This document shows, piece by piece, positions 1-27,675 of a stretch of DNA of 64,000 nucleotides. The notes under the pieces were generated by a model. It was not told the origin of the DNA and did no database searches. It saw nothing but the letters and a program-made list of their open reading frames with translations. The position numbers and the translations under genes are program-made. Position 1 is the stretch's first letter; the number at the start of each line of letters is the position of its first letter. Source of the stretch: Candidatus Methanosuratincola subterraneus (GTDB lineage: Archaea > Thermoproteota > Methanomethylicia > Methanomethylicales > Methanomethylicaceae); contig RXGA01000002.1 in the NCBI GenBank assembly GCA_004028775.1, positions 124,001-188,000 of the forward strand, written 5' to 3'.

Positions 1-150
1 GCGGAGCTCGAGGAGCCCCAAGTATACCCGATGCAAAGGGAATTGAGAGTCAACGTCACAGTCGAGGGCGACGAGGACCTCTTGGAGCTGCAGAGGAAGA
101 TCTCGAGGATAATCGAGGATGAGATGCGGAGGCACTACGGTGAGGGATGA
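1..150 (+). CDS. C-terminal fragment of an unidentified protein (5' end outside window)
   Basis: Frame 1 is open from the first base to a TGA at 148-150, giving 49 residues of a protein whose start lies to the left. The visible tail is acidic and probably helical (it ends IIEDEMRRHYGEG). Its stop overlaps the ATG of the next gene by 4 bases, the coupling typical of one operon, so it is probably another structural or assembly gene of the injection-system cluster. The family cannot be recognised from this fragment. Confidence 0.6.
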   Translation, partial: AELEEPQVYPMQRELRVNVTVEGDEDLLELQRKISRIIEDEMRRHYGEG

Positions 151-1154
151 GCATGTATATCAAGCTTGACGACATTGACCTGATAAAGCGCGTTGACGAG
201 GAGGGCGCCACCGTCGAGATAAGGAGCGTCCACGAGGTCCAGGTCTCGGCAAGGAGAAAGGTGGTCGAGCTCCCAGTGCCTGGATCTCAATCGAACATCT
301 TCCAAGACATGGGGAGGGATCCCCGGCGTGTGAGGCTAGAGGGGAGGCTGATTGGCAAGGCAGCCTTTGATACGCTGAAGACGATCAGGACCAAGTTCAA
401 CTCAGGCGATCTAATCCCGTTCTCCTCTGACATCTGGGCCATCGAGGACATCACAACGGTCATATTCGAGGGGTTCTCGGTGGGGGTCCACGACGGGATT
501 CCATTGGAGATCAGCTATACGATGCTTCTAAGGGAGGCGAAGCCGCCCCCAGAGGAAGGTGCAGGTGAGAAAGGTGCACCGAGCCAGAAGGGGGAAGCGG
601 AAAAGGAAGTAGAGGAGAAGACGAAGGAGATCACGAAGGAGAAAGAAGGCGGCAAGGAAGAGGGCAAAGGGGAGGAGAAGGGGGAGGGAAAGGAGGAGGG
701 AAAAGCGGAGAAGCCCAAGGAAAAGGAAGGGGCTCCGGAAGGGAAAGGAGAACTGGATAAGGGGGCCGCCGAAGGGACGCCGAAGGGTGAGGGGGAAGCA
801 GGAATAAAGAGCGAGAAAGAGGGCGGCAGGAAGGCTGATCAGGACAAGGAGGGAGCGATGAAAGGGGAGGGGGGCAAAGGGCCAGGAGAAAAAGAGGAGG
901 AAAAGGGACGGGGGAAGGAAAAGGAATCGGGCGAGACCAAGGATGAGGGAGGCGCCTCGGAGGGAGGAGGGCTGGATGAGGAAAAAGGAGCAGAGAAGTC
1001 CAGACCAGCGAAGAGTGAAGAGAAGTACGCTGAGGGCAAGGAAGGCGATGCCGCAGCTGCCGAGGATGGCGGGATCAAGGGCGGGCTCTTCGATCCAGTT
1101 TCCCAGGACGCCCCTAGAGAGGGACCGAAAAAAGCCTCTGAGAAGGGCAAGTAG
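147..1154 (+). CDS. Baseplate/tube-initiator-like protein with K/E/G-rich low-complexity tail
   Basis: This 335-residue protein has two parts. Residues 1-130 form a compact, beta-rich domain (motifs such as PGSQSNIFQDMG and RRVRLEGRLIG) resembling the N-terminal domain of tail proteins that sit between tube and hub in contractile tails (DNA-circularisation-N or LysM-baseplate type). Residues 131-335 are almost only Lys, Glu, Gly, Asp, Ser and Ala and look disordered. No LysM motif is visible in the tail, where such proteins often carry one. It is coupled upstream by a 4-base overlap and is followed 26 bases later by the hub gene. The domain match is by general resemblance and position, so the exact role is uncertain. 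Confidence 0.55.
   Translation: MSMYIKLDDIDLIKRVDEEGATVEIRSVHEVQVSARRKVVELPVPGSQSNIFQDMGRDPRRVRLEGRLIGKAAFDTLKTIRTKFNSGDLIPFSSDIWAIEDITTVIFEGFSVGVHDGIPLEISYTMLLREAKPPPEEGAGEKGAPSQKGEAEKEVEEKTKEITKEKEGGKEEGKGEEKGEGKEEGKAEKPKEKEGAPEGKGELDKGAAEGTPKGEGEAGIKSEKEGGRKADQDKEGAMKGEGGKGPGEKEEEKGRGKEKESGETKDEGGASEGGGLDEEKGAEKSRPAKSEEKYAEGKEGDAAAAEDGGIKGGLFDPVSQDAPREGPKKASEKGK
540..1150 (+). repeat. Low-complexity purine-rich tract encoding the K/E/G tail
   Basis: About 600 bases of the + strand consist mainly of A and G, with runs such as GGAGGAGAAGG. This opens long spurious reading frames on the opposite strand. It encodes the charged tail of the preceding protein. No exact tandem unit is visible, so it is compositional bias rather than a strict repeat. 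Confidence 0.7.
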
Positions 1155-1180
1155 GATGATCAACATATGGCGGGAGTTCG

Positions 1181-2143
1181 ATGAAGCACCCTGAATTCGA
1201 GTTGAGGATAGGGGACAAGGTGTTCAGCACGGGTGACGGCGTAAGCTTCATCATGTCAACCTGCGGGATGGGGCTCCCCGTGGACGGGATAACTGCGGTC
1301 ATAAGCAAGGAATCATCGTACAGATTCAAGCCCTTGGAAGAGGCGGAGCTCAAGCTCGGTTATGACGGGTCGTTGGAGAAGATCATGGTCGGGAATCTTG
1401 CAAGGGCAGAGGTGAGGCTCAATTCTGTGTTGATCTCGATCGACGGGATCGGTTCGAAGCTGCTCAGGAAGAGGTCAAACATGGTTTTCATGAGCCGCAC
1501 CTCAGGAGAGATCGTGGTTGCCCTCGCGCAAGAGGCTGGCGTTGACGTGGAGGAGTTCGAGAATGGGATCAATTACCCGTACTACGCCATCGATGATCGC
1601 TCGAACCTGCTCGAGCACATTGTCAGGCTGGGCAAGATTTGCGGCGCGGACGCCTTTTTTGACAAGGACGGGAAGCTCATATTCAGGAGGGCTGGAGGGG
1701 GAAAGGAGCACAGGCTCTCGTACGGGAAGGATCTCCTGGAGGTCTGGGCAATCAGGAAGGGGCCTCCATACGACGGTGTGGCGGTCTTCGGGGAGAGCCC
1801 TGTCGGCTCTAAGGGGGCAGATACCTACCACTGGGCTGCAAAAGAGGAGCTCAAGTTCACGAAGGGCGGTGAGAGGGCGCTGGCTATGGCAGAGGCGTCG
1901 CTCAAGAGCAGCGAAAGTGCGGAAAAGGCAGGAGAGGCTCTGCTCGAGGCATCGAAATACACTTTGATGCTTAACTTGAAGTCGGAGGGGAAGCCGGGCA
2001 TAAGGGTTGGGGACACCATAACACTCGAGGGCTTTGACGACCGTGAGATCGAGGGTTCGCATGAGGTCACGAGGGTTGAGCACAGCCTCAGCGTTTCAAG
2101 GGGCTTCACCAGCACTTTTACCTGCAGGAGGAAGTTGGAATGA
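1181..2143 (+). CDS. Phage late control D / gp27-like baseplate hub protein
   Basis: A 320-residue protein with the layout of gpD/gp27-type hubs: an N-terminal beta-barrel (residues 1-90), a central segment with the typical hub pattern (the SGEIVVALAQEAGVDVEEF region followed by GADAFFDKDGKLIFRR), and a C-terminal barrel ending in a DREIEGSHEVTRVEHS-like strand. Hubs of this family adapt the sixfold baseplate to the trimeric spike. The next gene, the spike, overlaps by 4 bases at 2140-2143, which fits this pairing. Size is usual for the family. Calling it a hub is well supported; the substrate of the system is unknown. Confidence 0.8.
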   Translation: MKHPEFELRIGDKVFSTGDGVSFIMSTCGMGLPVDGITAVISKESSYRFKPLEEAELKLGYDGSLEKIMVGNLARAEVRLNSVLISIDGIGSKLLRKRSNMVFMSRTSGEIVVALAQEAGVDVEEFENGINYPYYAIDDRSNLLEHIVRLGKICGADAFFDKDGKLIFRRAGGGKEHRLSYGKDLLEVWAIRKGPPYDGVAVFGESPVGSKGADTYHWAAKEELKFTKGGERALAMAEASLKSSESAEKAGEALLEASKYTLMLNLKSEGKPGIRVGDTITLEGFDDREIEGSHEVTRVEHSLSVSRGFTSTFTCRRKLE

Positions 2144-2907
2144 GCATAGTCAAGGCTATGAAAGACGTGGCAAGGAAGGAGATAAGCAAGCTCAGGACGC
2201 CTGAGCTGGGGATAGTCACATCCGTATTCCCTCATTCAAGTGAGGGGGACAAGGACAACTATGAGTGCAATGTCAGGCTAAAGAACAGCGAGCTGGAGCT
2301 CAGGGGGGTCCAGATCGCAACCGCTGCATACGGGCTGGTTGTGCCACCCTCGGTCGGCGATCTTGTGCTAATAGACTTCGTCGGGGGCGATGTGAACTTC
2401 CCGATAGTGATAGGGCGCATTTACAACGAAAAAGACCGCCCGCCCGTCAGCAAGACAGGGGAGCTAGTCTATGCTGCGCCCTTTGAGGAAGACAAGGAGT
2501 TGAGGAGAGTCTACATCCAGCTCCCAGGAGGCATGAAAGTATGCCTCAAGGACGCAGAGGTGACGGTGACCGCGGGTGCGACGAAGGTCACGATACAGAG
2601 GGGTGGGGACGTCACAATTGAGGCGAGCGGCGACGTCAAGGTCAAGTCCAAGCGCGATACGGCAATCGAGGCCGATGGGGACATCTCAATCTCCGCGTCA
2701 AACCTTAGGATAACCACCCAGAAAGATCTAAGCATATCATCAGGCAATAACGTCAATGTGGACGGCGGGAAAGATGTCAATGTCACAGCCGGAAACAACC
2801 TGAAAAACACTGCCTCGAACAACGCAGAGCTGAGTGCTGGAGTTCAGGCCAGTGTTGAGGGGGCGGCCACGGTCAAGATCAAGGGCGGCATCGTCAACAT
2901 AAACTGA
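2140..2907 (+). CDS. gpV/gp5-like spike (baseplate assembly protein V, VgrG-type)
   Basis: This 255-residue protein begins with a short helix, then an OB-fold (residues about 25-115, with GIVTSVFPH, VPPSVGDLVLIDF and PIVIGRIYN), and ends with a regular beta-helix-forming region (residues 140-255) of short repeats such as GGDVTIEASGDVKVKS and GNNVNVDGGKDVNVTAG. That is the classic layout of the trimeric puncturing spike of contractile systems. No lysozyme domain is inserted, unlike phage T4 gp5. It is coupled to the hub gene by a 4-base overlap. The spike tip is probably capped by the PAAR protein encoded at 7286-7681. Confidence 0.9.
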   Translation: MSIVKAMKDVARKEISKLRTPELGIVTSVFPHSSEGDKDNYECNVRLKNSELELRGVQIATAAYGLVVPPSVGDLVLIDFVGGDVNFPIVIGRIYNEKDRPPVSKTGELVYAAPFEEDKELRRVYIQLPGGMKVCLKDAEVTVTAGATKVTIQRGGDVTIEASGDVKVKSKRDTAIEADGDISISASNLRITTQKDLSISSGNNVNVDGGKDVNVTAGNNLKNTASNNAELSAGVQASVEGAATVKIKGGIVNIN

Positions 2908-2923
2908 TTGGGAGAGGGACGCT

Positions 2924-3343
2924 TTGAGCAATGAGAGATTGGGCAGGGATCTTAGGTTAAGGATAGACAGCACCGGTGCAGACTTGGCAGTTGACAAGTC
3001 TGGCGACCTGGCAACAGTCGAGGGTATTGACAACCTGGCTCAGGCCATAATCTGCAGGCTCTCGACAACAGTTGGGGAGATGGAGGACTTAGGGCACAGA
3101 GGCTACGGCTCGAGGCTCAGCGAGGTCTTGGGGCAGCCCAGGAACGAGAGGTCAATGAGCCTCATCCACAGGGCGGTGGCGTCGAGCCTTGCCGGGGAGA
3201 GGAGGATCCAGGAGCTGGTCTCGGTCACAGCAATCCCGGACAGGGACGACCCCGGGTTGGTCACAATAGAGATCACGGTTATTCCAGAATCAGGAGGGGG
3301 AACATTGAGCATAAGGTATCCGTTCCACTTGGAGGTGGCATAG
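2924..3343 (+). CDS. gp25/GPW-like baseplate wedge protein
   Basis: A 139-residue protein of the gp25-like family, which joins the sheath to the baseplate wedges. The conserved central pattern is visible: VEGIDNLAQAIICRLSTT, GEMEDLGHRGYGSRL, then a strand-rich C-terminus. The start is a TTG at 2924 preceded by GGGAGAGG about eight bases upstream. Length matches the family. It sits between spike and gpJ-like genes, the usual order in contractile clusters. Confidence 0.88.
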   Translation: MSNERLGRDLRLRIDSTGADLAVDKSGDLATVEGIDNLAQAIICRLSTTVGEMEDLGHRGYGSRLSEVLGQPRNERSMSLIHRAVASSLAGERRIQELVSVTAIPDRDDPGLVTIEITVIPESGGGTLSIRYPFHLEVA

Positions 3344-3344
3344 T

Positions 3345-4922
3345 ATGCCATTCAAGGCTAAGAGCTACGATCAGATAACAGAAGATGTCTTGGCACGCAT
3401 AACGGGCTTAGAGGCGTCCGAAGAATTCGAGTTCGAAGGAAGCAGGGGGGCTTATCGGCTTGCGAACGCCCCCGTCACTAAAATCATCAAAATCACGGGC
3501 ATGTCCAAGAGGAAAATGGCGGAGTTCTCCAGCGCGAAGGACTACAGGCTCTCAGGCAACTCAGTCGAGTGGATTGCAGGCGGGGCAAGACCGGACGAAG
3601 GAACCAAATTCACGGTAACATACAGGTATGCCAGGCCCGGCGGGCTTACTGACACCAGCGCTGGGAGCGTGCTCAGGACTCTAGTCGAGGGGATTAGCAG
3701 GGAGATCGAGTTCCTTTACGAGCAGCTCGATGCCGCATACCGGGCTGGTTTCCTAGAGACTGCAACAGGCGAGGCCCTGGAGATGACGGTCTCGCTCCTA
3801 GGGATTACGAGGAGGGCGCCGAGGCCTTCTTCAGGGAGGGTAACATTCGGGAGGACAAGCGAGCCAGAGAAGATCGAGGTGTCTGGGGAGGTCCATCTTT
3901 ACGACGGTTCGGAAAGCTACGAATTGAAGAACGCTCTGGTCAAGGAGATAACCAAAGTCGAGGGCATATCTGGCGGGCAGGCCACGGTCTTTACGACGTC
4001 TGACTACAGTTTGTCAGGAAGGAGGCTGGCATGGCTCCCAGGAGGGAGAAAGCCGGACCCCCGCACAGTCTTCAAGATCGACTATACGGCATTCCAGCAG
4101 ATAAAGATCCCAAAGAACACGAAGGTTTCCACATTCGCCACATCACCTGAAGATGCAAAGGTGTTCTTGACGACTGAAGAAGGGGTGCTGCAACCTGCCG
4201 AAGGGGGGAGATGGGAGTGTGACGTGCCGGTCGTCTGCACAGTCCCCGGAAAGAAGGGCAACGTCCCCGCAGGTGCAATAACAATAATGCCGCAGCCGGT
4301 TATCGGCGTAGAATATGTGATAAACAAGGGGGACATCTCCAACGGATCTGAGGCAGAGACAGATGAAGAGCTCAGGGAGAGGGCAAGGCATGCGCTGGAG
4401 TTCGCAGCCAAGGCTACGCCTTCATCGCTAGATTCCGCCCTGAAGTCGGTCAAGGGCGTCAACTCCATACTCATCGATGAGATGCCAGGAGGGGTCCCAG
4501 GCATAGTCAGGGTCGTTGTGGATGGTGGCGACGAGGCAGAGATAAGGAAGGTCATAGACGAGACCAGGGCTGCGGGCATAAAGGTGGAATTCCTGAGGCC
4601 CAAAGTAGTGCACATCGATGTTTCAATGACGGCCATAATTGAGGCGCCAACAGATCCTGGAAAGGTCATCAGGGACGTGGAGGCATCAGTCAGGGGCTAC
4701 ATATCATCTCTGAAGATCGCCGAGGACGTACTGTATTCCAAAATTATAGCATCGTGCCTGGCGGTGGACGGCGTCTGGGACGTGAGAGACCTTAAGCTTG
4801 CGGCATATAGGACAGGCGAGCCCCTGCTCAGCCGGGGCGAGAACATCAGGATCGAAACGGACGAGAGGGCAATCCCGAGGAATGTGAGCGTCACATTTGG
4901 GGTGCGTGAGAAGTATGAGTAG
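3345..4922 (+). CDS. gpJ-like baseplate wedge protein with duplicated beta module
   Basis: This 525-residue protein belongs to the baseplate J family (gp6-like), the main wedge component. Residues 100-160 and 255-525 carry the family core (SREIEFLYEQLDAAYRAGFLETATGEALE; GSEAETDEELRERARHALEF; PGGVPGIVRVVV; a final ASCLAVDGVWDVRDLKL-like segment). Unusually, a module of about 60 residues occurs twice, at 36-95 and 191-249, each with a DY-x-LSG core followed by W-x2-GG-x2-PD. Such modules are not part of the minimal gpJ fold. The ATG lies 2 bases after the gp25-like stop. Confidence 0.85.
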   Translation: MPFKAKSYDQITEDVLARITGLEASEEFEFEGSRGAYRLANAPVTKIIKITGMSKRKMAEFSSAKDYRLSGNSVEWIAGGARPDEGTKFTVTYRYARPGGLTDTSAGSVLRTLVEGISREIEFLYEQLDAAYRAGFLETATGEALEMTVSLLGITRRAPRPSSGRVTFGRTSEPEKIEVSGEVHLYDGSESYELKNALVKEITKVEGISGGQATVFTTSDYSLSGRRLAWLPGGRKPDPRTVFKIDYTAFQQIKIPKNTKVSTFATSPEDAKVFLTTEEGVLQPAEGGRWECDVPVVCTVPGKKGNVPAGAITIMPQPVIGVEYVINKGDISNGSEAETDEELRERARHALEFAAKATPSSLDSALKSVKGVNSILIDEMPGGVPGIVRVVVDGGDEAEIRKVIDETRAAGIKVEFLRPKVVHIDVSMTAIIEAPTDPGKVIRDVEASVRGYISSLKIAEDVLYSKIIASCLAVDGVWDVRDLKLAAYRTGEPLLSRGENIRIETDERAIPRNVSVTFGVREKYE

Positions 4923-5823
4923 AGCAGAAAAGATGTGCGACAGGCTCCCCAAGTTCTACAAGGGGTGGGATAGGGGCTCGCTTGTCTACGCTTTTATCTC
5001 CTCCTTCGCATCCCAGATCGACGACGCTGATGACCAGATAGCCGAAATAATGAGGTCGCACTGGGTGGACTCCGCCAGGGGACAAGACCTGGACCTCCTT
5101 GGTGCAGCCGTTGCATCAAAGAGAATGCAAGGGGAGGGCGACGAAAAGTACAGGTCGAGGATCCGCAGGGCAGTGAGCGACTACCGAGGGGGAGGCACAG
5201 TCAGGGCCATACTCGAATCAGTCATGGGTCTGATTGGAACTTCTACAGAAGGAGACGTCGAGATCGTGGAAAACCCGCTCCTTTCACTCTCAGAGGAGGT
5301 GAAGGTCATGGCAGGCGAGACCTGGACGATCAGCAGCAGGACCGTTGAGGACGTGGATCCGAGGATAAGCATCTCGATTGAGGAGGGCGGGGAGGTCAAG
5401 GACCCGACGCTGACAAACCTGAAGACAGGAGAGGTTGTGACCTTCAAAGGAACCTTGGTTGGCGGTCAGGAATTAGTGCTTTCAAAGGGCAGGTCGGAGC
5501 TCAACGGGGAGGATGTGACGGGCAGGGTCGAGATCAAGGGGTTCCCCAGGCTCCTAAGGGAGGGATCCGTATGGAAGTACAGCGAGTCCCTGAGCGGGCT
5601 GCTTGGTGTCTTCGATTCTGCAAAGTTCGACGAGCACACGTTCACCAAGGGGATCCCGTATCTGACGATCAGGTTTGAATGGGAAGGGCATGCCCCAGCC
5701 TCTTTCGAGGTGAGGATAAGATCTGGGGCGCTGAAGAGGAGCGGCCTGGGGGTCGAGGACGTAGAGAGGTTTGTCTCGAAGATGAGGGCCGCTGGTGTGT
5801 CATCAAGAGTCAGGGTGATCTAA
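4915..5823 (+). CDS. gpI-like tail/baseplate wedge protein
   Basis: The N-terminal half (residues 1-110) matches P2 gpI-type tail proteins: a helical start (CDRLPKFYKGWDRGSLVYAF), SQIDDADDQIAEIMRSHWVDSARGQDLDLLG, then the RIRRAVSDYRGGGTVRAI segment. The C-terminal half is beta-rich and may be an elaboration facing fibres. ATG 4915 is preferred (302 residues, overlapping the gpJ stop by 8 bases); an in-frame ATG at 4897 would add six residues with no better binding site. In known systems gpI partners gpJ and anchors the fibres. Confidence 0.78.
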   Translation: MSRAEKMCDRLPKFYKGWDRGSLVYAFISSFASQIDDADDQIAEIMRSHWVDSARGQDLDLLGAAVASKRMQGEGDEKYRSRIRRAVSDYRGGGTVRAILESVMGLIGTSTEGDVEIVENPLLSLSEEVKVMAGETWTISSRTVEDVDPRISISIEEGGEVKDPTLTNLKTGEVVTFKGTLVGGQELVLSKGRSELNGEDVTGRVEIKGFPRLLREGSVWKYSESLSGLLGVFDSAKFDEHTFTKGIPYLTIRFEWEGHAPASFEVRIRSGALKRSGLGVEDVERFVSKMRAAGVSSRVRVI

Positions 5824-17181: not shown

Positions 17182-17622
17182 ATGAGCGTTGTTGTGGCAC
17201 AAGAAAAGAAGCCCTTGATAAGGTTTGACATAAAGAAATGCGCGTTCTGCAAGATATGCGAGTTGAGTTGCTCGAAATACCATTACAAGAAGTTCGGGGA
17301 CTCGATCTCGCGAATAACGATAATCAGGAAGGGTCCACTGATGTTCAAGTGTCACATTTGCACTAGGTGCGAGAAGCGCTTCTGCATAACCGCCTGCCCT
17401 ACTAAGGCACTCTCCTACAAGGGCGGGAACATCGTTGTGGATCCTAAGCTATGCAATTCATGCGGCGATTGTGTGAAGGCTTGCCCGTTCCACGGGATAA
17501 AGCTCCACCCGGAGACCAAGCTGCCAATAATATGCGATCTCTGCGACGGGGATCCGAGCTGCGTCAAGGACTGCCCAAAGGGAGCCCTAACGCTCGTATG
17601 GTTGCCTGAGGTAAGGAAGTGA
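17182..17622 (+). CDS. Polyferredoxin partner of aldehyde oxidoreductase
   Basis: A 146-residue iron-sulfur protein with four cysteine groups: CAFCKICELSC, CHICTRCEKRFCITACP, CNSCGDCVKACP and CDLCDGDPSCVKDCP. This fits about four [4Fe-4S] clusters, as in the DmsB/HycB-like electron-transfer subunits. The aldehyde oxidoreductase gene starts 2 bases after its stop, so it is most likely the electron acceptor of that enzyme. ATG 17182 is clear. It is divergent from the LeuA-family gene across 129 bases containing TATA-like boxes in both directions. Confidence 0.88.
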   Translation: MSVVVAQEKKPLIRFDIKKCAFCKICELSCSKYHYKKFGDSISRITIIRKGPLMFKCHICTRCEKRFCITACPTKALSYKGGNIVVDPKLCNSCGDCVKACPFHGIKLHPETKLPIICDLCDGDPSCVKDCPKGALTLVWLPEVRK

Positions 17623-17624
17623 TC

Positions 17625-19499
17625 ATGATGAAGTACAGCGGGTATAAAGGCAAAGTTTTGGCAATTAACCTGACCACCAAGAAGACTAACACCATAGATG
17701 TGACGGACGAATTCGCCAGGAAATACATCGGGGGCAACGGGTTCGCGGTGAGGTACCTCTTTGACATGGTCGACCCACGGATGGATGCGTTCGATGTGAC
17801 GAATGTCGTGGCGATGATGACCGGGCCATTCCAGGGGATCAACTTGCCGACCGCGGGCAAGTACTACATGGCCACCAAATCGCCGTTGACTAACGGCTAT
17901 TTCGACAGCGTTAGTGGAGGTTTCATCGGCGCCCAGATAAAATACGCAGGGTATGACGGCTTCCTGATCACAGGTAAGGCCGACAAGCCGACATATCTCT
18001 TCGTCGAGGACGGGAAGGTCGAGTTCAGGTCTGCCGAGAGGCTGTGGGGGAAGCTGACCGGGGAGACCCAGGAGATGATAAAGGAGGAGGTGGGCGACCC
18101 GGACCTCTGCGTCTCTGCGATAGGCCCGGCTGGAGAGAACCTGGTGAGGTATGCCTGCGTTATCACAGAGTACAGGGCGGCGGGCAGGGGAGGCGTCGGC
18201 GCGGTCCTAGGCTCCAAGAAGCTCAAGGCGATAGCAGTGAGGGGCTCCGGCACCAACGAGGTTGCGGATCCAGAGGCCTACGAAGCATGGATGCAGTGGT
18301 ACAAGGAGGAGGCAAAGAAGGTGCCTGGAATAGCGGTTGGCCTCCCGACATACGGGACTCCGGCGCTTGTCGCCAGCATAGGCAAGATGCTGGGTGCGAT
18401 GGGATCCTACAACCACCAGACAGAGTTCTTCCAGAACTGGGAGAACATCTCAGGAGAGAGGCTGAAGAAGGAGTTCTGGGACAAGGACACGGCGTGCCCG
18501 GCGTGCCCGATCGCCTGCAGCAAGGTCTTCTCAGCGAAGTCGGGCAAGTGGAAGGGCGCCATATCTGAGGGGCCGGAGTACGAGACGATCTACTCGCTAG
18601 GGTCGATGTGCGGAATCGACGACCTAGGCGCGATAATCAAGGGAGACAGCCTCTGCGACGAGTGGGGCATGGACACTGTGACCTATGGTGTGATGCTCTC
18701 GTTCCTGATGGAGGCGTACGAGAAGGGATTAATAACCAAGGAGAACACGGACGGCGTGGAGTTCAAGTTCGGCAACGACGACGCAATGATCGCATACATC
18801 GAGAAGACAGCAAAGAGGGAAGGTATAGGGAACCTGATGGCAGAAGGCTCCCTGAGGGCAGCCAGAATCATCGGAGGCGGATCGGAGCGTTTCGCAATCC
18901 AGGTCAAGGGGCTCGAGATACCTGGGCACTCCGCAAGGGCTCTGAGGGGCATGGCGCTTGGATACTCGACTGCGACCAGGGGAGGCAGCCACCATGACCC
19001 CAGGCCCACAGGCGAGTACGCCGGAGCCTCTGACAGGAAGGCTGTCGAGGGCAAGGCAGCGTGGGTCATAGGCACGCAGCAGATGACCACAATCGGGGAC
19101 AGCCTAGTGAACTGCCACTTCCTTGAGAGGCTGCTCGGGTTCACGCTCACCCAGAAATGGGTGGACATGATAAACCCCGTCACAGGGTTCGGCTACACCT
19201 TAGAGGAGCTCACAACAGTCGCCGAGCGGATTCTGGACCTGGAGAGGGCTTTCAATGTCAGGACAGGGATAAGGAGGAAGGACGACACGCTCCCGAGGAG
19301 ATTCCTGGAGGAGCCGATACCGGAGGGCCCATCACAGGGAATGTACACAGACGAGCCGACGCTCAACAAGATGCTCGACGACTTCTATGCGCTCAAGGGA
19401 TGGGACCCGAAGACTGGCGTGCCCACAAGGGAGAAGCTCGTCAGGATGGGTCTCGAGGACGTAGCGGACTGCCTGAACAAGAGCGGGATAAGCTGCTAG
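17625..19499 (+). CDS. Tungsten-dependent aldehyde:ferredoxin oxidoreductase
   Basis: A 624-residue AOR-family enzyme that oxidises aldehydes to acids (or the reverse) and passes electrons to ferredoxin. The N-terminal domain holding the tungsten bis-pterin has YKGKVLAINLTT and GGNGFAVRYLFD; [4Fe-4S] ligands appear as CPACPIAC with a later Cys in DSLVNCHF; the C-terminal signature is ERAFNVRTG. Length is standard. ATG 17625 is preferred over GTG 17619 because GAGGTAAGG precedes it. Immediately downstream genes encode corrinoid methyl-transfer proteins, a less usual neighbourhood. Substrate unknown. Confidence 0.93.
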   Translation: MMKYSGYKGKVLAINLTTKKTNTIDVTDEFARKYIGGNGFAVRYLFDMVDPRMDAFDVTNVVAMMTGPFQGINLPTAGKYYMATKSPLTNGYFDSVSGGFIGAQIKYAGYDGFLITGKADKPTYLFVEDGKVEFRSAERLWGKLTGETQEMIKEEVGDPDLCVSAIGPAGENLVRYACVITEYRAAGRGGVGAVLGSKKLKAIAVRGSGTNEVADPEAYEAWMQWYKEEAKKVPGIAVGLPTYGTPALVASIGKMLGAMGSYNHQTEFFQNWENISGERLKKEFWDKDTACPACPIACSKVFSAKSGKWKGAISEGPEYETIYSLGSMCGIDDLGAIIKGDSLCDEWGMDTVTYGVMLSFLMEAYEKGLITKENTDGVEFKFGNDDAMIAYIEKTAKREGIGNLMAEGSLRAARIIGGGSERFAIQVKGLEIPGHSARALRGMALGYSTATRGGSHHDPRPTGEYAGASDRKAVEGKAAWVIGTQQMTTIGDSLVNCHFLERLLGFTLTQKWVDMINPVTGFGYTLEELTTVAERILDLERAFNVRTGIRRKDDTLPRRFLEEPIPEGPSQGMYTDEPTLNKMLDDFYALKGWDPKTGVPTREKLVRMGLEDVADCLNKSGISC

Positions 19500-19630
19500 A
19501 AGCAACAAGCCTGCCTCTTTTATTTTTTTTATCAATTAATGCCAACGCTATCCCAAGAAGCCTGCATTTTGCAAGAAAACCGAAAAAGTATTAAAACAGC
19601 CGAAGACGACTTCAAGTGAGGTTTTATCCA

Positions 19631-20290
19631 ATGAGCGAAGCACAGTTATTCGAGGAATTGGCGAACGCCGTCTACGCGGGAGATGATGCCAAGGCAGTAG
19701 AGCTATCTAAGAAGATCCTTGAAGCAGGGATCGAGCCCCTAAAGGCAATAAATGAGGGGCTCATGAAAGGGATGAGCAGGGTTGGAGACGATTTCAGCCA
19801 GCTCAAGATATATCTCCCCGAGGTGATGCTTGCAGCAGAGGCGATGAAATCGGCCCTGGCAGTGCTCGAGCCCGAGGCGCTAAAGCGGGGCAAAGCCACT
19901 GTCAAGAGCAAGGTCGTTATCGCCACCATCACCGGGGACATTCATGACATAGGCAAGAACATCGTCGCGATGCTGATGAGAGCCAACGGTTTTGAGGTTT
20001 ATGACTTGGGCAGGGATGTCCCGATAGACGAGCTGATAAAGAAGGCAGAGGAGGTCAAGGCTGACTTCATCTGCGCCTCCACGCTCCTCTCGACCTCGAT
20101 GCCATACATGGAGGACCTCATCTCGCTCCTTAAAGAGAGAGGGATAAGGGAGAAGTACCTGGTGATGGTCGGCGGAGGTCCAGTTACGCGCGAATGGGCA
20201 GCCTCGATCGGCGCCGACGGGTACGGTGACGACGGGGACGAGGCGGTCAAGGTGGCAAAGGAGCTCCTCCAGAGGAGAGGTGCCCCATGA
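19631..20290 (+). CDS. Corrinoid methyl-carrier protein (MtmC/MttC-like)
   Basis: A 219-residue two-domain corrinoid protein. Residues 1-85 form the four-helix cap (AVELSKKILEAGIEPLKAIN, then YLPEVMLAAEAM), and 90-219 the B12 Rossmann domain with the base-on motif DIHDIG (Asp103, His105, Gly108), then SxL and GGGP motifs. It would accept a methyl group on cobalt from a cognate methyltransferase. ATG 19631 has GTGAGG upstream; a GTG at 19616 is less likely. Its stop overlaps the ATG of the first MtmB-like gene by 4 bases, so the two are translationally coupled. Confidence 0.92.
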   Translation: MSEAQLFEELANAVYAGDDAKAVELSKKILEAGIEPLKAINEGLMKGMSRVGDDFSQLKIYLPEVMLAAEAMKSALAVLEPEALKRGKATVKSKVVIATITGDIHDIGKNIVAMLMRANGFEVYDLGRDVPIDELIKKAEEVKADFICASTLLSTSMPYMEDLISLLKERGIREKYLVMVGGGPVTREWAASIGADGYGDDGDEAVKVAKELLQRRGAP

Positions 20291-21654
20291 CCTCAATCTG
20301 GGAAGTAATCGACAGGGCTGAAACAGGAACTTACATGGAAGAGACGGACTTCGACCTAAAGATCGTCGCCAAGAAGTGCAAGGAGCTGGTCAAGGAATAC
20401 GACATAAGGTACGACCCGAAGCAGATAATCACCTCGGACGATTCGCTCGCGGACGACGTCTTCGAGGCAGGGCTGAGGCTGGCGCTCGAGTCCGGAATAT
20501 ACTGCATCGACACCAAGAGGGTCGTCAAGTTCGAAGAGTATGAGCTGAAGGAGGGCATAATCTCGGCCCCAAGGAGGCTCATCATCGGGCAGAACAAGGA
20601 TTCCAGGATTCTCTACGCCAGGGGGATCGAGGACGAGCGATCCCCGATAATCTGCGGGGGCCAGGCCGGGGCAGCCATACCTGAGGAGTGGTACCTCCCG
20701 ATGGCGATATCCTACATGAAGGAGCCCCTAGTCGACATGATCAACAACGGAGGGCTCGCGGTGGTCGAGGGGAGGAAGGTCAGGACAAAGACGCCCCTCG
20801 AGATACAGGCCACAAGGAGGGAGCTGTCAATGCTCAGGGAGGCCGCCAGGCGCGCAGGGAGGCCTGGCATCAGCTTCATTGCTGCAGAGAGCAGCGTCTC
20901 GGCAATGGGCGACCTTGCGATAGCCAGCGAGAGGTACATGAGGAGGACGGACTCGCACCTTGTAGCGCTGCTGAACGAGCTGAAGACGGACTTCGACAGG
21001 ATCTCCAAGGTAGTTAACTTCTACGAGTATGGGGCGCACAATGTGACATTGGTCGATCCGATCATAGGGGGCTACGCAGGCGGTCCGGAGGGGGTGGCAG
21101 TCTGCTTTGTTGCCTCATTCCTTCTCGGCAGGGCCATGTACGGTTCGGACTTCCATGTTTGCCACCCAATCCACTTCAGGTACATGAGCACAAGTGCACC
21201 AGAGTGCATGTGGAACTTGAACATCGTGGGCCAGGCAATGGCAAGGAATGCCCCATTCATAATTATGGGGGACGTTTGGACTTCGGCTGGCGCCGGGAGC
21301 GAGATGGTGTTCTATGAGACAGCAGCGAACACGATTACGAATGTAGTGACAGGGAGCCACCCGCTAGGGGTCTCAGCCACCAACGGGAAGTACCCGCATG
21401 CGACTGGGCTCGAGACCAGGTTCATGGCAGAGGTGGCGCATGCAGCGGTGAGATCGAAACTCAATCGCAAGTCAGCCAATGCAATCGTCGTCGAGCTTGC
21501 GAAGAGGTACGCAGACAAGCAAGGAAAGCCCGACATCGGCAAGCCATTCCCGGAGCTCTATGACGTGGGAAGGGTGATCCCCAAGCCAGAGTGGAATGCG
21601 ACTTACCTTAAGATGAAAAAAGAGATCTCGGAAATGACCGGACTGGAGTTCTGA
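20287..21654 (+). CDS. MtmB-family methyltransferase homologue lacking pyrrolysine (copy 1)
   Basis: A 455-residue protein matching monomethylamine methyltransferase MtmB (458 residues) end to end: GIYCIDTKRVVKF, ARRAGRPG, TDSHLVALLNELK, GGYAGGPEG and GAGSEM. MtmB reads an in-frame amber codon as pyrrolysine at position 202; here that column is Ile198 (codon ATT, 20878-20880). Three other MtmB active-site residues, Glu229, Glu259 and Gln333, align with Leu225, Leu255 and Asp329, and Tyr335 with Trp331, with no gaps from 202 to 344. The barrel is intact but the methylamine chemistry is gone. It should methylate the upstream corrinoid protein from another donor. Confidence 0.88.
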   Translation: MTSIWEVIDRAETGTYMEETDFDLKIVAKKCKELVKEYDIRYDPKQIITSDDSLADDVFEAGLRLALESGIYCIDTKRVVKFEEYELKEGIISAPRRLIIGQNKDSRILYARGIEDERSPIICGGQAGAAIPEEWYLPMAISYMKEPLVDMINNGGLAVVEGRKVRTKTPLEIQATRRELSMLREAARRAGRPGISFIAAESSVSAMGDLAIASERYMRRTDSHLVALLNELKTDFDRISKVVNFYEYGAHNVTLVDPIIGGYAGGPEGVAVCFVASFLLGRAMYGSDFHVCHPIHFRYMSTSAPECMWNLNIVGQAMARNAPFIIMGDVWTSAGAGSEMVFYETAANTITNVVTGSHPLGVSATNGKYPHATGLETRFMAEVAHAAVRSKLNRKSANAIVVELAKRYADKQGKPDIGKPFPELYDVGRVIPKPEWNATYLKMKKEISEMTGLEF

Positions 21655-21668
21655 ACAGGTGGTATGAA

Positions 21669-23045
21669 ATGAAGACTTACAGGCTAGATGAAGTGACCAA
21701 GAGGGCTCTAGAGGGCCCGTTCATGGATGAGAAGGACTTTGACATGAAGCTGATGAAGAGGACGAAGGAGCTGGTCAAGGAATACGACATAAGGTACGAC
21801 CCGAAGCAGCCAGTCTGCACCGATGACTCTGTGGCAGACGACGTGTACGAGGCGGCGATGAGGCTCCTGCTCGAGATGGGGTTCTACTGCCAGACCACGA
21901 AGCGAACAATCATGTTCGAAGAGGGCGAGATAAAGATGGTACTGAGGTCGCTCCCCGAGAGCATCCTGCTCGGTTCGGGCAAGGACGCAATCGTGATGAA
22001 CATGAGGCGGGTCGAGGATCCTCGGCCTCCTGTGATACATGCTGGCCCGACGGGCACGCTCTGCACAGAGGGCGAGATCTACGTTAAGACATTGCGGAGC
22101 TTCGCGCAGGAGGAGGTAATAGACTCCCTGGGTGCAGGGACGCTGGCCACAATAGACGGCTTCAAGATAAGGAAGGGGACGCCGCAGGAGTTCAGGGCGG
22201 CGCGGCTCCTGGCCAGGTGGGCGAGGGAGGCGATAAGCCAGGCAGGAAGGCCAGGGATGCACATAAACGACGTTGCAGTCGTCAGCCCCGAGGCAAAGCT
22301 TTGCGCACTGGACCCTGCATACGGGTTGAGGCCGAGCGACGGCATAATAGTCTCCCAGATGATTGAGCTCAAGACCAGCCTCCAGCACCTCTCGCTCGTG
22401 GAGCACCTACAGAGCTACGGGATCCATATCGGCAACCTGATGACCCCAATCCTTGGAGGCTACGCAGGCGGACCTGAGGGGACGGCAATAGTGAATGTGG
22501 CAGAGCATATCGCTGGAGCCGTCTGCTACAGCGCAAGTTACCATTACTGCAGCCTTACCAACGTGAAGAACCTGAACGGCACGGATCGTCCGGGCCTTTG
22601 GGCCATTAGCATGGTCGGGCAGGCGCTCTCGAGGAACTCTGAGATAATGAGCGTCTATGACTGCTACTGCGCAAGCGGACCTGGGGAGGAGATGCTACTC
22701 CTAGAGGCGGCTGCGGGCGGGGTCGCAGCATCGGTGGCAGGCATGAACGTGATGGGCTGCGGATCATGCGGCGGGAAGCTGGTTGACCACTCCACCGGGC
22801 TCGAGGCCAGGATGCTGAAGGAGGCTGCAGCTGCCGCGGCAGGAATGAGCAGGGCTGATGCGAACGAGATCCTGAACAAGCTACTCCCGAGATACGAGGA
22901 AAGGCTGGACATCTTCAAGGCGCCCAAGGGCAAGACGTTCCAAGATCTCTATGACTTGGCGTCCGCCAGACCCAAGGCAGAATGGCAAGATCTTTACGAC
23001 AAAGTGGCAAGAGAGCTCTCGGATTTGGGTCTCGAAATCGCCTAA
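21669..23045 (+). CDS. MtmB-family methyltransferase homologue lacking pyrrolysine (copy 2)
   Basis: A 458-residue paralogue of the preceding gene, starting 14 bases after it with GGTGG before ATG 21669. Shared landmarks are VKEYDIRYDPKQ, QAGRPGMHI, GGYAGGPEG and GPGEEM. The pyrrolysine column is Asn200 (codon AAC, 22266-22268); Glu229, Glu259 and Gln333 of MtmB align with Ile227, Leu257 and Asp331, while Tyr335 is kept as Tyr333. The pair differ strongly in the active-site loop, so they may act on different substrates or form a hetero-oligomer. Both share the unusual Asp at the Gln333 column. Probably in one transcript with the corrinoid gene. Confidence 0.88.
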   Translation: MKTYRLDEVTKRALEGPFMDEKDFDMKLMKRTKELVKEYDIRYDPKQPVCTDDSVADDVYEAAMRLLLEMGFYCQTTKRTIMFEEGEIKMVLRSLPESILLGSGKDAIVMNMRRVEDPRPPVIHAGPTGTLCTEGEIYVKTLRSFAQEEVIDSLGAGTLATIDGFKIRKGTPQEFRAARLLARWAREAISQAGRPGMHINDVAVVSPEAKLCALDPAYGLRPSDGIIVSQMIELKTSLQHLSLVEHLQSYGIHIGNLMTPILGGYAGGPEGTAIVNVAEHIAGAVCYSASYHYCSLTNVKNLNGTDRPGLWAISMVGQALSRNSEIMSVYDCYCASGPGEEMLLLEAAAGGVAASVAGMNVMGCGSCGGKLVDHSTGLEARMLKEAAAAAAGMSRADANEILNKLLPRYEERLDIFKAPKGKTFQDLYDLASARPKAEWQDLYDKVARELSDLGLEIA

Positions 23046-23106: not shown

Positions 23107-24048
23107 TCATCGCTCTCTCCCGATTCTCTTCCCCAGGCTGGCAGGACCCCTGACGCCTCTACCGCCAACGACAAGCGCAACGAGCGCAACCAGATACGGA
23201 AGCAGGGCGAAGAGCTGGTTGATCGAGGCTCCAGAAAGCTCTGGGAATATTATTCCAATCCGTAGAGAGAGGGCCTCTGTGAATCCGAAGAGAAGCGATC
23301 CCGCGAGCGCCCCCCAAGGGTTCCACCTGCCCAGGATGACTATCGAGACCGCAACAAAACCCCTCGCAGCCACTATCCTCGGGTCAAAAGTGTTGAACAT
23401 CGATATAGTCAGCAGTCCGCCAGCCAATCCTGCAAGAATGCCCTCTGCAAGCAGCGCAGCATACCTCATTTTCACGACATTTATGCCAAGGTAGGAGGCT
23501 ATTACAGGGTCCTCGCCAATTGACCTGAGGCGGAGGCCAAATGATGTCTTCGTCAGAAGCACGTATATGAGAGGCACGGACACCAGCCCCAGGTACACGA
23601 AACCAGTCTGCGTGAATAGGACCTCCCCCAAAACAGGCATATTGCACAGGAACGGGATCGGCATCGGCCCGAAGAGTTCTCCCAGGTAGGGTGAAACCCC
23701 ACCCGTGAAGAGCACCCTAGTGAAGTAAAGCGTTAGGCCGCTCGCGAGTAGGTTGATCGCCAGGCCGGAAACCACCTGATCCAGGTCGAGATTTATCACC
23801 AGAATGCCGAAGAGCAGGGTGGTCAGGATCCCGCCTATGATTGCTGAGATCAGCCCAATCCAGAGGCTACCGGCGAAATAAGCACCCATGAAGCCGGAGA
23901 ATGCGCCCACAAGCATTGCACCCTGCAGCCCCAGGTTTAGCATGCCACCCCTCTCAGCGATTGTCTCGCCGAGCGAGGCCAGCAGGAGCGGGGCAGCAAC
24001 CCTTAGTGTGGCGGCAGCCAGACCTGTCAAGGCTAAAAACTCGATCAT
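23107..24048 (-). CDS. BMP-type (nucleoside-like) ABC transporter permease, second subunit
   Basis: A 313-residue inner-membrane permease with about 8-9 hydrophobic helices and the family signature GETIAERGGMLNLGLQGAML. It is the YufQ/NupQ-like partner of the permease encoded just upstream, whose stop its ATG overlaps by 4 bases. BMP-family importers are known for nucleosides and related compounds. It is last in a four-gene operon and converges on the MtmB-like genes with 61 bases between stops. Substrate unproven. Confidence 0.88.
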   Translation of the reverse strand: MIEFLALTGLAAATLRVAAPLLLASLGETIAERGGMLNLGLQGAMLVGAFSGFMGAYFAGSLWIGLISAIIGGILTTLLFGILVINLDLDQVVSGLAINLLASGLTLYFTRVLFTGGVSPYLGELFGPMPIPFLCNMPVLGEVLFTQTGFVYLGLVSVPLIYVLLTKTSFGLRLRSIGEDPVIASYLGINVVKMRYAALLAEGILAGLAGGLLTISMFNTFDPRIVAARGFVAVSIVILGRWNPWGALAGSLLFGFTEALSLRIGIIFPELSGASINQLFALLPYLVALVALVVGGRGVRGPASLGKRIGRER

Positions 24049-25100
24049 AGCTTCAGCACCCCGCGTCTCTCAAGGAACCGCACCAGCGGCTCAGAAGCGA
24101 GCACGAATATGAACAAGAGCCCCTGCATAAGGTCAACTATCCCCATCGGTATGTTCATCGTCCAGGCTAGCGTCGAAGATCCGTTCATTATGGCAGCCAA
24201 GAAGAGAGATGCAAGCGCGACCCCTATGGGGTTATTGTTACCAAGCAGCGCCACCACTATGCCGGTATATCCATATCCGGGCGACAGCGAACCCCTCACC
24301 CTGAACTGGATCCCCATCACCTCAGTAATTCCGGCGAGGCCTGCCAGCAGCCCGCTGAATACAAGGGAAACAAAGATCACTTTGCCTATCTCCATCCCGC
24401 CGTACCTTGCTGCTTCAGGGTTTTCCCCAACTACCTTCACCTTGTACCCGAATGTCGTCCTCTCGAGGAGGAAATAGACTAAAGGGACAAGTGCAAGGGC
24501 AAGGGCCACGCCCAAGTGGAGCCTGGTCCCCGGCAGGATTACTGCCAGCGCGGATGAGGATGGTATTGCCGAGGATTCGGGGAAGTAAGTATCGGGGCTC
24601 CTGAAAGGGTAGGAGATCATCCACTGCACAAGATAGATCCCGACAAAGTTCATCAGGAATGTTGTTATCACCTCGTTGATTCCGAGCTTGACCTTCATCA
24701 ATGCAGGCCCTGCGGCCCACAGGAGGCCGCCAACCGCCCCGACGACCAGCGCAGCCAACAAAGACAGCGGACCGCCGCCGATGCCGATCGCGGCGATGGT
24801 GCCAAGCATCGCACCTATGTAGAGCTGACCCTCTGCCCCGATGTTCCATATCTTGCACTTGAAAGAGACTGCCAGGCCAAGTGAGACGATCAGTATGGGG
24901 GTCATCCTTATCATGGTCTCAGAGGCGAGGTTTATGTCGCCGAACGCCCCCTGGAACATGTAGATGAATGCCAAGATTGGGTTGACGTTGTTAATCAGGA
25001 AGACAACCGAAGTCACGGCAAGCGTCAGCACCACCGACAGCAATGCCTTGACAATCGATCGCTTTGTGCCCCTTGAGATTGTTAGCTGGCGCTCCACCAA
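24045..25100 (-). CDS. BMP-type ABC transporter permease, first subunit
   Basis: A 351-residue permease, YufP/NupP-like, with an N-terminal basic segment and about 9-10 membrane helices. Motifs include GLAVSFKCKIWNIGAEGQLYIGA and VVGENPEAARYGGM, the typical coupling region to the ATPase. It lies 1 base after the ATPase gene stop and overlaps the next permease gene by 4 bases. Length is standard. With its partner it should form the membrane channel. Confidence 0.9.
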   Translation of the reverse strand: MVERQLTISRGTKRSIVKALLSVVLTLAVTSVVFLINNVNPILAFIYMFQGAFGDINLASETMIRMTPILIVSLGLAVSFKCKIWNIGAEGQLYIGAMLGTIAAIGIGGGPLSLLAALVVGAVGGLLWAAGPALMKVKLGINEVITTFLMNFVGIYLVQWMISYPFRSPDTYFPESSAIPSSSALAVILPGTRLHLGVALALALVPLVYFLLERTTFGYKVKVVGENPEAARYGGMEIGKVIFVSLVFSGLLAGLAGITEVMGIQFRVRGSLSPGYGYTGIVVALLGNNNPIGVALASLFLAAIMNGSSTLAWTMNIPMGIVDLMQGLLFIFVLASEPLVRFLERRGVLKL

Positions 25101-25101
25101 A

Positions 25102-26667
25102 TCAGTCAGCCCCCAGCATCAACCTCGAGAGCCTTTCAACATCCAAGTTCTCTGGCATGAACTCGCCCACGATCTTGCCGCCGAAGATCACGCATATCCT
25201 GTCGCTCAACTTCATTATCTCGTCAAGGTCTGAGGAGACCAACAGGATCCCAACTCCCATCGACCTCAATTCAACTAGCTTTTGGTGCACAGCCTCTGAC
25301 GCCTTTATGTCCAGGCCAGCAGTCGGCTGCTCAGCTATGAGGACAAGTCCGCCATTTGAGAGCTCCCTTGCAACTATAAGCTTCTGTATGTTACCGCCTG
25401 AGAGGTTCTCGACAGAAGTGCACGGGTCAGAAGCCTTTATAGAGAACTTCGATATCAGGCTCTCTGCATTCTTGACCATCGATCTTCTGTCAATTATCTT
25501 GCTCTTGCTCATCGGCGGCTTCTCGATGCACTTTAGGGCCAAGTTTTCGTGGACGCCCATTGTGAGCACCACGCCCCTATGCATCCTGTCCTCAGGTATG
25601 TAGGAGATGCCCTTCTCGATTATGAAACGTGTCGGTTTATTCGTGATGTCTTGGGACAAAAGCTTGACCGCCCCTGACTCGACCTTCCTTAGGCCGGTTA
25701 TAGCTTCCACCAGTTCCTTCTGACCGTTGCCTGCCACGCCCGCGATCCCGACGATCTCACCGGACCTGACCGTCAAGTTCAGGCCGTCGACCGCAATCCG
25801 CCCGCGGTCATCTTTCACCTTGAGGGACTCAACTTTAAGAATAATATCCCCCGGGGTGCCGCGCACCAGCGTTGGGGCTGGAAGCATGCCCTCAACCACA
25901 AGCGACGCCAAGAGGGCCTCATTGGCATCTGAGGTCGGGATAGTCCTGATCACCCTCCCGCCCCGGAGGACAGTTATCCGGTCACTTATCTGGAGAGCCT
26001 CTTTCATCTTGTGGGTGATTAGCACAACTGTCTTTCCGGACGATTTTAGATTCATTATCATCTTGAAGAAGGAATCAACTTCGATCGGAGTCAAGACCGA
26101 AGTAGGCTCGTCGAGTATCAGGATTCTAACGTCCTGGCAGAGGAGGCGGAGGATCTCGACTAGCTGCCTCTTGCCAACGGGCAGGCTCTCGATCTTCGAT
26201 TCTGGGTCTATCTCGAGCCCCATATCCTTCGAGACAGCAGCTATCTTCTCGTCAACTTTTTTCAGATCCAGCCAGGGTGAAGTTGCAAGGACCAGGGCAA
26301 TGTTCTCCCGCACAGTGAACTCAGGGATGAGCGTGAAGTGCTGGTGCACCATGCCTATCCCGAGCCGGGACGCGTCCCTAGGATCCCTTATCTTCACCGG
26401 CTTCCCGTCAATGAAAATCTCCCCCTTGTCCGGTTTCAGGATCCCGGAGATTATCCTCATCAAGGTCGTCTTCCCGGCCCCGTTCTCACCAAGTATGGCA
26501 TGGACCTCGCCCCTCAATATTCCCAAGGTCACATCCTGGTTTGCCACGGTGCCGTTCGGGAATGTCTTGGATATGTTCTTTAGGAATATGGCATACTCCT
26601 CATTCTGAGGCGTTGAGTTGACCTCTCTTTTCTCAAAAAAAGGGGAAGAAAGTGGCGTGATTGCCAC
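25102..26667 (-). CDS. BMP-type ABC transporter ATP-binding protein (two ABC domains)
   Basis: A 521-residue protein with two fused ATPase domains. The first has Walker A GENGAGKTT, a signature degenerate to LPVGKRQLVE, and Walker B ILILDEPTS; the second has a weakened Walker A (GVAGNGQKE) but a proper signature LSGGNIQK and AEQPTAGLD. That asymmetry is normal for sugar and nucleoside importers of this class (YufO/NupO, RbsA-like). The start is GTG 26667, 3 bases after the binding-protein stop. No other start is available in frame before the Walker A. Confidence 0.92.
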   Translation of the reverse strand: MAITPLSSPFFEKREVNSTPQNEEYAIFLKNISKTFPNGTVANQDVTLGILRGEVHAILGENGAGKTTLMRIISGILKPDKGEIFIDGKPVKIRDPRDASRLGIGMVHQHFTLIPEFTVRENIALVLATSPWLDLKKVDEKIAAVSKDMGLEIDPESKIESLPVGKRQLVEILRLLCQDVRILILDEPTSVLTPIEVDSFFKMIMNLKSSGKTVVLITHKMKEALQISDRITVLRGGRVIRTIPTSDANEALLASLVVEGMLPAPTLVRGTPGDIILKVESLKVKDDRGRIAVDGLNLTVRSGEIVGIAGVAGNGQKELVEAITGLRKVESGAVKLLSQDITNKPTRFIIEKGISYIPEDRMHRGVVLTMGVHENLALKCIEKPPMSKSKIIDRRSMVKNAESLISKFSIKASDPCTSVENLSGGNIQKLIVARELSNGGLVLIAEQPTAGLDIKASEAVHQKLVELRSMGVGILLVSSDLDEIMKLSDRICVIFGGKIVGEFMPENLDVERLSRLMLGAD

Positions 26668-26670
26668 CCC

Positions 26671-27675
26671 TTATGGGCTCGGTGGACCGAAGTTGAGAGG
26701 AACTACCACTGAACCATTGATTATCTTCTGCACGAGGGTGTCGCTGTATGCCTTGGCCTCAGGGAATTTGGCAGCGTTGACCGGGTTCCAGACGAACTTC
26801 GATGTGCCCTTGCTCATTGAGGCGATGTAATCCCCAGGGATGAAAGTTCCATTCTGGGCGCGCTGTATGAGCTCCTTTACCATCGGGTAGGTGTCCCACA
26901 CTACGCTCCCGATCACAGCATCAGAAGCATTGTTCTGATCCACGATGTTGCCGAAAGCGTAGGCAATTATCTTGCCATTGCTGTCCTTGCAGGCCTCGAA
27001 GACACCGTATCTCTCGGAGTATATCACGTCAACGCCGGACTCGATAAGCCCAGCGGCAGCCTCCTTGGCCTTTGATGGTGCATACCAGTCATATATGTAG
27101 GATATGACGATGGTCACGTTTGGATTGACCGATTTGGCGCCTGCAATGAACCCGTTCAGCAGGTTGTCCACATCCCCGACTCCTGGGAACGCGGTTACGA
27201 TCCCTATCTTGCTAGTGTTGGTTATCTTAGCCGCGATTGCGCCAGCCACATAGGCGGCTTCCTGTATGTGATAGTCATAGAGGACCGTGTTGTTCCCGTA
27301 GTTCATGTTCATGCCTGAGCCCTGCGCGAAGAATACGCTCCTGTACTGGGCCGCGGTCGCGTTAGTCACAGGGTGGTAACTCCAGCTGTGCGGGAAGATC
27401 ATCTTGAAGCCTGCTGAGACATACTGCGTCATCACCATCGCAACGGTCGAGTCGCCAACGTTCTCGGAGTAGTTGTATACGATCCCAAGTTCATTCTTCG
27501 CCTTCAATAGCGACTGGTGGAGAGCCTGGTTCCATGGTTCCTCCAACGGGGAGATGTAGATTGCGGCTACCTTGAACTGCTGAGGCTGCGGACTCAGAGT
27601 TGTCGTGTAATAGTAAGCTCCTGCGATCACTATGATTGCCACAACAACCAAACCTATTATGTACGAGGTTTTCAT
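26671..27675 (-). CDS. BMP-family substrate-binding protein, membrane-anchored
   Basis: A 334-residue periplasmic-type binding protein of the BMP/PnrA family. Residues 5-25 form an uncleaved membrane anchor without a lipobox cysteine, followed by a Thr/Pro linker and the binding lobes (VAAIYISPLEEPWNQ, FAQGSGMN, KIGIVTAFPGVGDVDNLLNGF). A Trp-rich loop near DWYAPSKAKE lies where nucleoside binders have aromatic ligand contacts. First gene of the transporter operon; a TATA-like A/T-rich stretch lies upstream. The ligand might be a nucleoside or another methylated or nitrogenous compound linked to the neighbouring methyltransferases. Confidence 0.85.
   Translation of the reverse strand: MKTSYIIGLVVVAIIVIAGAYYYTTTLSPQPQQFKVAAIYISPLEEPWNQALHQSLLKAKNELGIVYNYSENVGDSTVAMVMTQYVSAGFKMIFPHSWSYHPVTNATAAQYRSVFFAQGSGMNMNYGNNTVLYDYHIQEAAYVAGAIAAKITNTSKIGIVTAFPGVGDVDNLLNGFIAGAKSVNPNVTIVISYIYDWYAPSKAKEAAAGLIESGVDVIYSERYGVFEACKDSNGKIIAYAFGNIVDQNNASDAVIGSVVWDTYPMVKELIQRAQNGTFIPGDYIASMSKGTSKFVWNPVNAAKFPEAKAYSDTLVQKIINGSVVVPLNFGPPSP

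Follow-up and report, generated by a model that had tools for sequence, protein, structure and literature searches.

A tandem pair of pyrrolysine-free MtmB-family methyltransferases in Methanosuratincola, with monomethylamine as a candidate methyl donor

The usual explanation of pyrrolysine is that it is needed to activate methylamines. A locus in the archaeon Candidatus Methanosuratincola subterraneus raises the question of whether enzymes of the MtmB family can act without this amino acid, and on which methyl donor. The locus lies in a stretch of 64,000 nucleotides (the window; contig RXGA01000002.1, positions 124,001 to 188,000), and coordinates refer to the window unless another contig is named. 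Two adjacent genes on the forward strand encode non-pyrrolysine MtmB-family methyltransferases. Copy 1 (20287..21654) encodes 455 aa and ends in TGA, and copy 2 (21669..23045) encodes 458 aa and ends in TAA. The original prediction for this locus had the coordinates, strand and lengths of both genes right.

Both copies are full-length matches to PF05369 (MtmB) in a profile search, with 369 bits for copy 1 and 350 bits for copy 2 (cut-off 25), and they make up the whole PF05369 content of the genome. The sole PDB chains related by sequence are those of M. barkeri MtmB (E about 1e-69). Each copy is 32% identical to that enzyme, and the two copies are 40% identical to each other. For copy 1, the AF2 model (pLDDT 88.9) matches 1L2Q with a TM score of 0.92 and an rmsd of 2.0 A. 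The model of copy 2 is weaker (pLDDT 72.8), and its best PDB match is again 1L2Q, with a TM score of 0.81. A maximum-likelihood tree of 65 sequences (MtqB not included) resolves copy 1-type and copy 2-type enzymes as two supported clades, both distinct from the pyrrolysine enzymes. The predicted MtmB-like nature of both proteins is borne out by the profile, the tree and the fold. Kinship with MttB or MtbB was rejected because neither copy matches PF06253 or PF09505.

The active site of M. barkeri MtmB is replaced in both proteins. The pyrrolysine column (O202) holds Ile198 in copy 1 (codon ATT, 20878..20880, forward strand) and Asn200 in copy 2 (codon AAC, 22266..22268, forward strand). Asn200 is the residue found in a 69-sequence alignment; one three-sequence alignment put I199 there through a one-residue gap shift, which is immaterial. 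In the alignments E229 becomes L225 in copy 1 and I227 in copy 2, E259 becomes L255 and L257, Q333 becomes D329 and D331, and Y335 becomes W331 and Y333, respectively. The alignment over these columns is gap-free in net terms, as had been judged by eye, with constant offsets to MtmB of 4 residues for copy 1 and 2 for copy 2, and the proposed replacement of the whole site stands. The miscalled amber codon that might have undone this proposal is absent: the column is read by sense codons, and neither gene contains an in-frame TAG. Judged by alignment columns and the ends of strands rather than by model coordinates, the site of each copy is mostly apolar, with one Asp and one aromatic residue. 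A zinc site was also considered in copy 1 (H290, C292, H293, H296) and rejected, since H293 is kept in copy 1 and its single-copy relatives of family f34 and C292 is not.

Four changed sites at 32% identity would by themselves be unsurprising, and fixation of the changes across orthologues is the stronger evidence. The site residues are near-invariant within the orthologues of each paralogue. Asp at column 333 and Leu at column 259 occur in all 17 copy 1-type, 13 f34 and 18 copy 2-type sequences; column 335 is Trp throughout the copy 1-type and f34 sequences and Tyr in copy 2. Comparison of congeners gives each copy a dN/dS ratio of 0.04-0.05. This ratio, together with the near-invariant site, indicates that both genes are under constraint. 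The two copies are a real and conserved pyrrolysine-free MtmB pair.

The genes immediately around the pair identify a corrinoid methyltransferase system. Upstream lies a corrinoid protein gene of the MtxC type (19616..20290, forward strand; TIGR02370, 221.5 bits, cut-off 215.3), which encodes B12-binding domains and overlaps copy 1 by 4 bases. The operon joins two paralogues with one cognate corrinoid protein carrying the DxHxxG motif (DIHDIG), as in MtxB/MtxC systems. Further upstream on the same strand are a 4Fe-4S ferredoxin-like protein (17182..17622), whose linkage is kept in the genus and not in the whole family, and an aldehyde:ferredoxin oxidoreductase (AOR) family protein (17619..19499; PF01314, 424.5 bits; PF02730, 249.7 bits). 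A place for AOR in the core module was rejected; its linkage is variable, seen in the genus of the window and in some further genera but not beside the pair in genera g4 and g5, which makes it accessory. Downstream, on the reverse strand and convergent with copy 2, lies a Bmp-type ABC importer comprising permease 2 (23107..24048), permease 1 (24045..25100), an ATPase (25102..26667) and a Bmp/PnrA-type substrate-binding protein (26671..27675; PF02608, 109 bits; one copy genome-wide). The permeases and the ATPase were assigned by orthology clusters, that of the ATPase lying beside the MtmB pair across the family. The order corrinoid protein, copy 1, copy 2 and convergent importer is found across the family wherever the contig is long enough. 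Near the start of the window, positions 147-5823 of the forward strand hold a contractile-tail baseplate cluster with a gpV-like OB spike, Baseplate_J (phrog_6, 180 bits), and baseplate and tail proteins, probably either a provirus remnant or a tail-like particle in a Methanosuratincola genome.

The genus lacks the known pyrrolysine route. Eight Methanosuratincola genomes were searched, four of them at least 93% complete, and PylS above the cut-off was found in none, the window's own genome (96.7% complete) included; PylD was likewise absent from all eight. Profile searches of the same genomes found no MttB, MtbB or amber-containing MtmB. Among 22 genomes of the family, only two (G169 and G234) carry PylS and PylD above the cut-off, and the same two hold the only amber-containing MtmB and the only MttB or MtbB matches. 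Most genomes also give low-scoring PylS hits (18-28 bits); these were taken for other class II synthetases, since they are also seen in 12 control genomes without above-cut-off PylS. The pyl system is patchy in these lineages, and a report of PylS with MtmB/MtbB in Methanomethylicus strain V1 is consistent with this. In G234 the pair coexists with a pyrrolysine MtmB and PylS. G169 also carries a divergent non-pyrrolysine MtmB with Thr at column 202 and Glu229 kept (L074:8769-10151, reverse strand), convergent with the pyrrolysine MtmB within the pyl cluster.

McrA is present in the window's genome, which places it in a methanogen lineage. The genome encodes four corrinoid proteins: one beside MtaB and RamA, one with a URO-D protein, one with MtrH-like and MetE-like proteins, and that of the pair. 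A single MtaB is present, with MtaC and a RamA-like protein. Judged by these four contexts, no methylamine-type candidate other than the pair was found in the genome. In a congener, a second divergent McrA-like gene (G198 C112:32990-34615; 516 bits, below the cut-off) recalls the ACR/ECR-type McrA reported in Methanomethylicia.

What the pair demethylates is suggested by the physiology of the genus. With H2, the type strain, M. petrocarbonis LWZ-6, can reduce methanol and monomethylamine, and it is negative on dimethylamine, trimethylamine, betaine and methanethiol (PMC12244365). Monomethylamine use in LWZ-6, set beside a pyrrolysine-free genus, puts the pair first among candidates for demethylating monomethylamine without pyrrolysine. 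Should LWZ-6 be like its congeners, MtaBC would serve methanol, leaving monomethylamine with the pair only. The weakest step of this elimination is that LWZ-6 is judged from congeners and from genome V4 (same species, about 74% complete), in which the pair is present and PylS was not found. An apparent 997-aa fusion of the copies in V4 was rejected because a run of Ns, an assembly gap, lies between them.

The best explanation, to which we give a probability of roughly 40%, is that the copies are pyrrolysine-independent MtmB-fold methyltransferases working with the upstream corrinoid protein, with monomethylamine as the most likely donor in Methanosuratincola. Copies 1 and 2 would demethylate a methylated amine and deliver the methyl group to the corrinoid protein, which we infer to be shared by both. 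From there a URO-D-family methylcobamide:CoM methyltransferase, whose gene lies at another locus, would pass the methyl group on to coenzyme M for H2-dependent methanogenesis. Monomethylamine would be bound as methylammonium in a pocket formed by D329 and W331, or by D331 and Y333, with I198, L225 and L255 or their equivalents. Such a pocket might present the cation directly to Co(I), so that pyrrolysine would be unneeded. The fuller proposal is that the tandem pair is a pyrrolysine-free monomethylamine:corrinoid methyltransferase, that demethylation of monomethylamine in vivo has no chemical need of the 22nd amino acid, and that the copies may form a mixed complex on one corrinoid protein; we hold it tentatively, at somewhat under even odds.

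The evidence on monomethylamine points in both directions. The MtmB family and fold, and the absence of another methylamine-type enzyme from the genome, favor it, as does the monomethylamine activity of MtqB in vitro, 11 versus 37-42 nmol/min/mg on its main substrates (PMC13044021). The original prediction proposed a different methyl donor, which may hold, but with a congener growing on methylamine, monomethylamine is arguably the leading candidate for the donor. Against it, LWZ-6 itself could possibly carry a pyl cassette, and the coexistence of the pair with a pyrrolysine MtmB and PylS in G234 may mean that the two kinds of enzyme are not redundant. A mostly apolar site that has lost both glutamates suits a bulkier cation better than methylammonium. 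Methylamine would hardly call for a linked Bmp-type importer. In addition, G143, a genome without McrA, has the copy 1/copy 2 pair.

In the strongest rival reading, the substrate is an imported N-methyl (or O-methyl) compound of larger size, for example a nucleoside or heterocycle with an N-methyl group, supplied by the adjacent Bmp/PnrA-type importer, with methylamine use being incidental or due to other genes. The linkage is persistent. Exactly one Bmp binding protein occurs in each of nine family genomes tested, and in 8/9 its gene shares a contig with the MtmB pair and adjoins it; the ninth contig ends inside the importer. In five genomes of family f17 the Bmp gene adjoins RamA, corrinoid protein, MtmB-like and MtaB genes, and in G143 (family f11) the Bmp cluster is divergent from the pair. 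Linkage of the importer to MtmB-family genes spans three archaeal families, of which f17 and f11 are McrA-negative in the genomes tested, and so holds in McrA-positive and McrA-negative lineages alike. This suggests that the importer supplies the methyltransferases with something, possibly the methyl donor, and is the chief ground for treating a larger substrate as a strong rival. The apolar site with one Asp and one aromatic residue would also fit such a substrate. However, Bmp proteins bind varied ligands, such as purine nucleosides and riboflavin, which leaves the ligand a guess, and the linkage may be old synteny. Moreover, no Bmp protein was found in the f34 and f26 genomes tested, although they have MtmB homologues. 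On balance, we consider an imported compound an unlikely donor that nevertheless deserves serious attention.

A further rival is that the pair is a functional equivalent of MtqB, acting on quaternary amines such as tetramethylammonium or choline. MtqB of Methanococcoides methylutens Q3c, the only non-pyrrolysine MtmB with a demonstrated function, demethylates both compounds and has low monomethylamine activity in vitro (PMC13044021), and an apolar aromatic pocket would suit quaternary ammonium ions. The pocket reported for MtqB has an invariant Met and an invariant Cys together with aromatic residues (PMC13044021). The negative result of LWZ-6 on betaine counts against this rival, choline and tetramethylammonium lying outside the listed tested substrates (PMC12244365). 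In addition, demethylation of tetramethylammonium leaves trimethylamine, a dead end for a genus without MttB or MtbB. Quaternary amines are an improbable choice. That the copies are ordinary pyrrolysine MtmB with a missed amber codon, or decaying pseudogenes, is hardly credible: the former is rejected by the sense codons, the lack of an in-frame stop and the lack of PylS, and the latter by the dN/dS ratio and the conservation across the family.

Relatives of the pair extend beyond this family. On the earlier suggestion that two paralogues with one corrinoid protein may serve two substrates or form a mixed complex, the new point is that copy 1-type enzymes exist without copy 2 in family f34. 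The 13 f34 loci (L085, L089-L091, L094, L096, L099-L105) hold single copy 1-like homologues that group with copy 1 in the tree and have the same L/L/D/W site. McrA is absent in the two f34 genomes tested, and a corrinoid gene adjoins the MtmB homologue in about 3/13. Among the homologues compared, no copy 2 was clearly without copy 1; one (G083) lies at a contig edge. No homologues were found on plasmids or viral contigs. In G143 (L083), which has no McrA, the pair is accompanied by a corrinoid protein, a RamA-like activator, the Bmp importer and a URO-D-family gene, and this locus is a compact version of the module, found outside methanogens. Other site types also occur. The non-pyrrolysine MtmB type of family f17 (L092, L093, L095, L097, L098) carries His in the pyrrolysine column and G/G/I at columns 229/259/333; its locus also holds MtaB, a corrinoid protein and RamA, with the Bmp importer adjoining. 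The loci of family f26 (L086, L087, L088) encode a non-pyrrolysine MtmB with a third type of site alongside a Fae-HUMPS fusion, AOR or ABC transporters, and this enzyme may feed formaldehyde-linked C1 metabolism.

The original prediction of a new subfamily was too strong, since non-pyrrolysine MtmB homologues are numerous and the function of MtqB has been demonstrated (PMC13044021). A 2026 study placed 1061 MtmBs, with and without pyrrolysine, in one tree (PMC13044021). MtqB resembles the pair in being a methanogen's non-pyrrolysine MtmB homologue encoded beside a corrinoid protein gene. In contrast, it is a single gene in a host that also has pyrrolysine enzymes, whereas the pair consists of tandem paralogues in a pyrrolysine-free genus, with a Bmp importer and AOR nearby. 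M. barkeri MtmB (PDB 1L2Q/1NTH/1TV2) shares family, fold and a corrinoid partner with the pair, and differs from it in all four site residues (O202, E229, E259, Q333) and in having a Pyl system, which the pair's genome lacks. The MtgB-type non-pyrrolysine MttB homologues, which act on glycine betaine, represent the same kind of evolutionary event, pyrrolysine-free members of a pyrrolysine family, but belong to another family (PF06253) with a distant fold similarity only (9yce, TM about 0.55, 12% identity). MtaBC, the methanol:corrinoid methyltransferase, is likewise a corrinoid system feeding CoM with one copy in the same genome; unlike the pair, MtaB is a zinc enzyme (PF12176), and it is encoded at a separate locus. 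The novelty is the setting, a pair in pyrrolysine-free Methanosuratincola while the type strain of the genus reduces monomethylamine.

The pair would call for a correction of annotation. An earlier listing gave the 'mtmB' genes of Methanomethylicia MAGs as monomethylamine methyltransferases, in a paper whose main text nowhere uses the word 'pyrrolysine'. One MAG from that listing, LCB019-004 (L011), carries the pyrrolysine-free pair, and PylS was not found in it. Methanomethylicia MtmB matches have been taken as ordinary monomethylamine use, yet nearly all of those in the family are pyrrolysine-free. If the monomethylamine reading is true, the pair may show methylamine use without pyrrolysine. 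Methanosuratincola would then be a monomethylamine user apparently without Pyl machinery, with the pair as its only methylamine-type methyltransferases, in which the explanation of pyrrolysine by chemical need would be directly testable.
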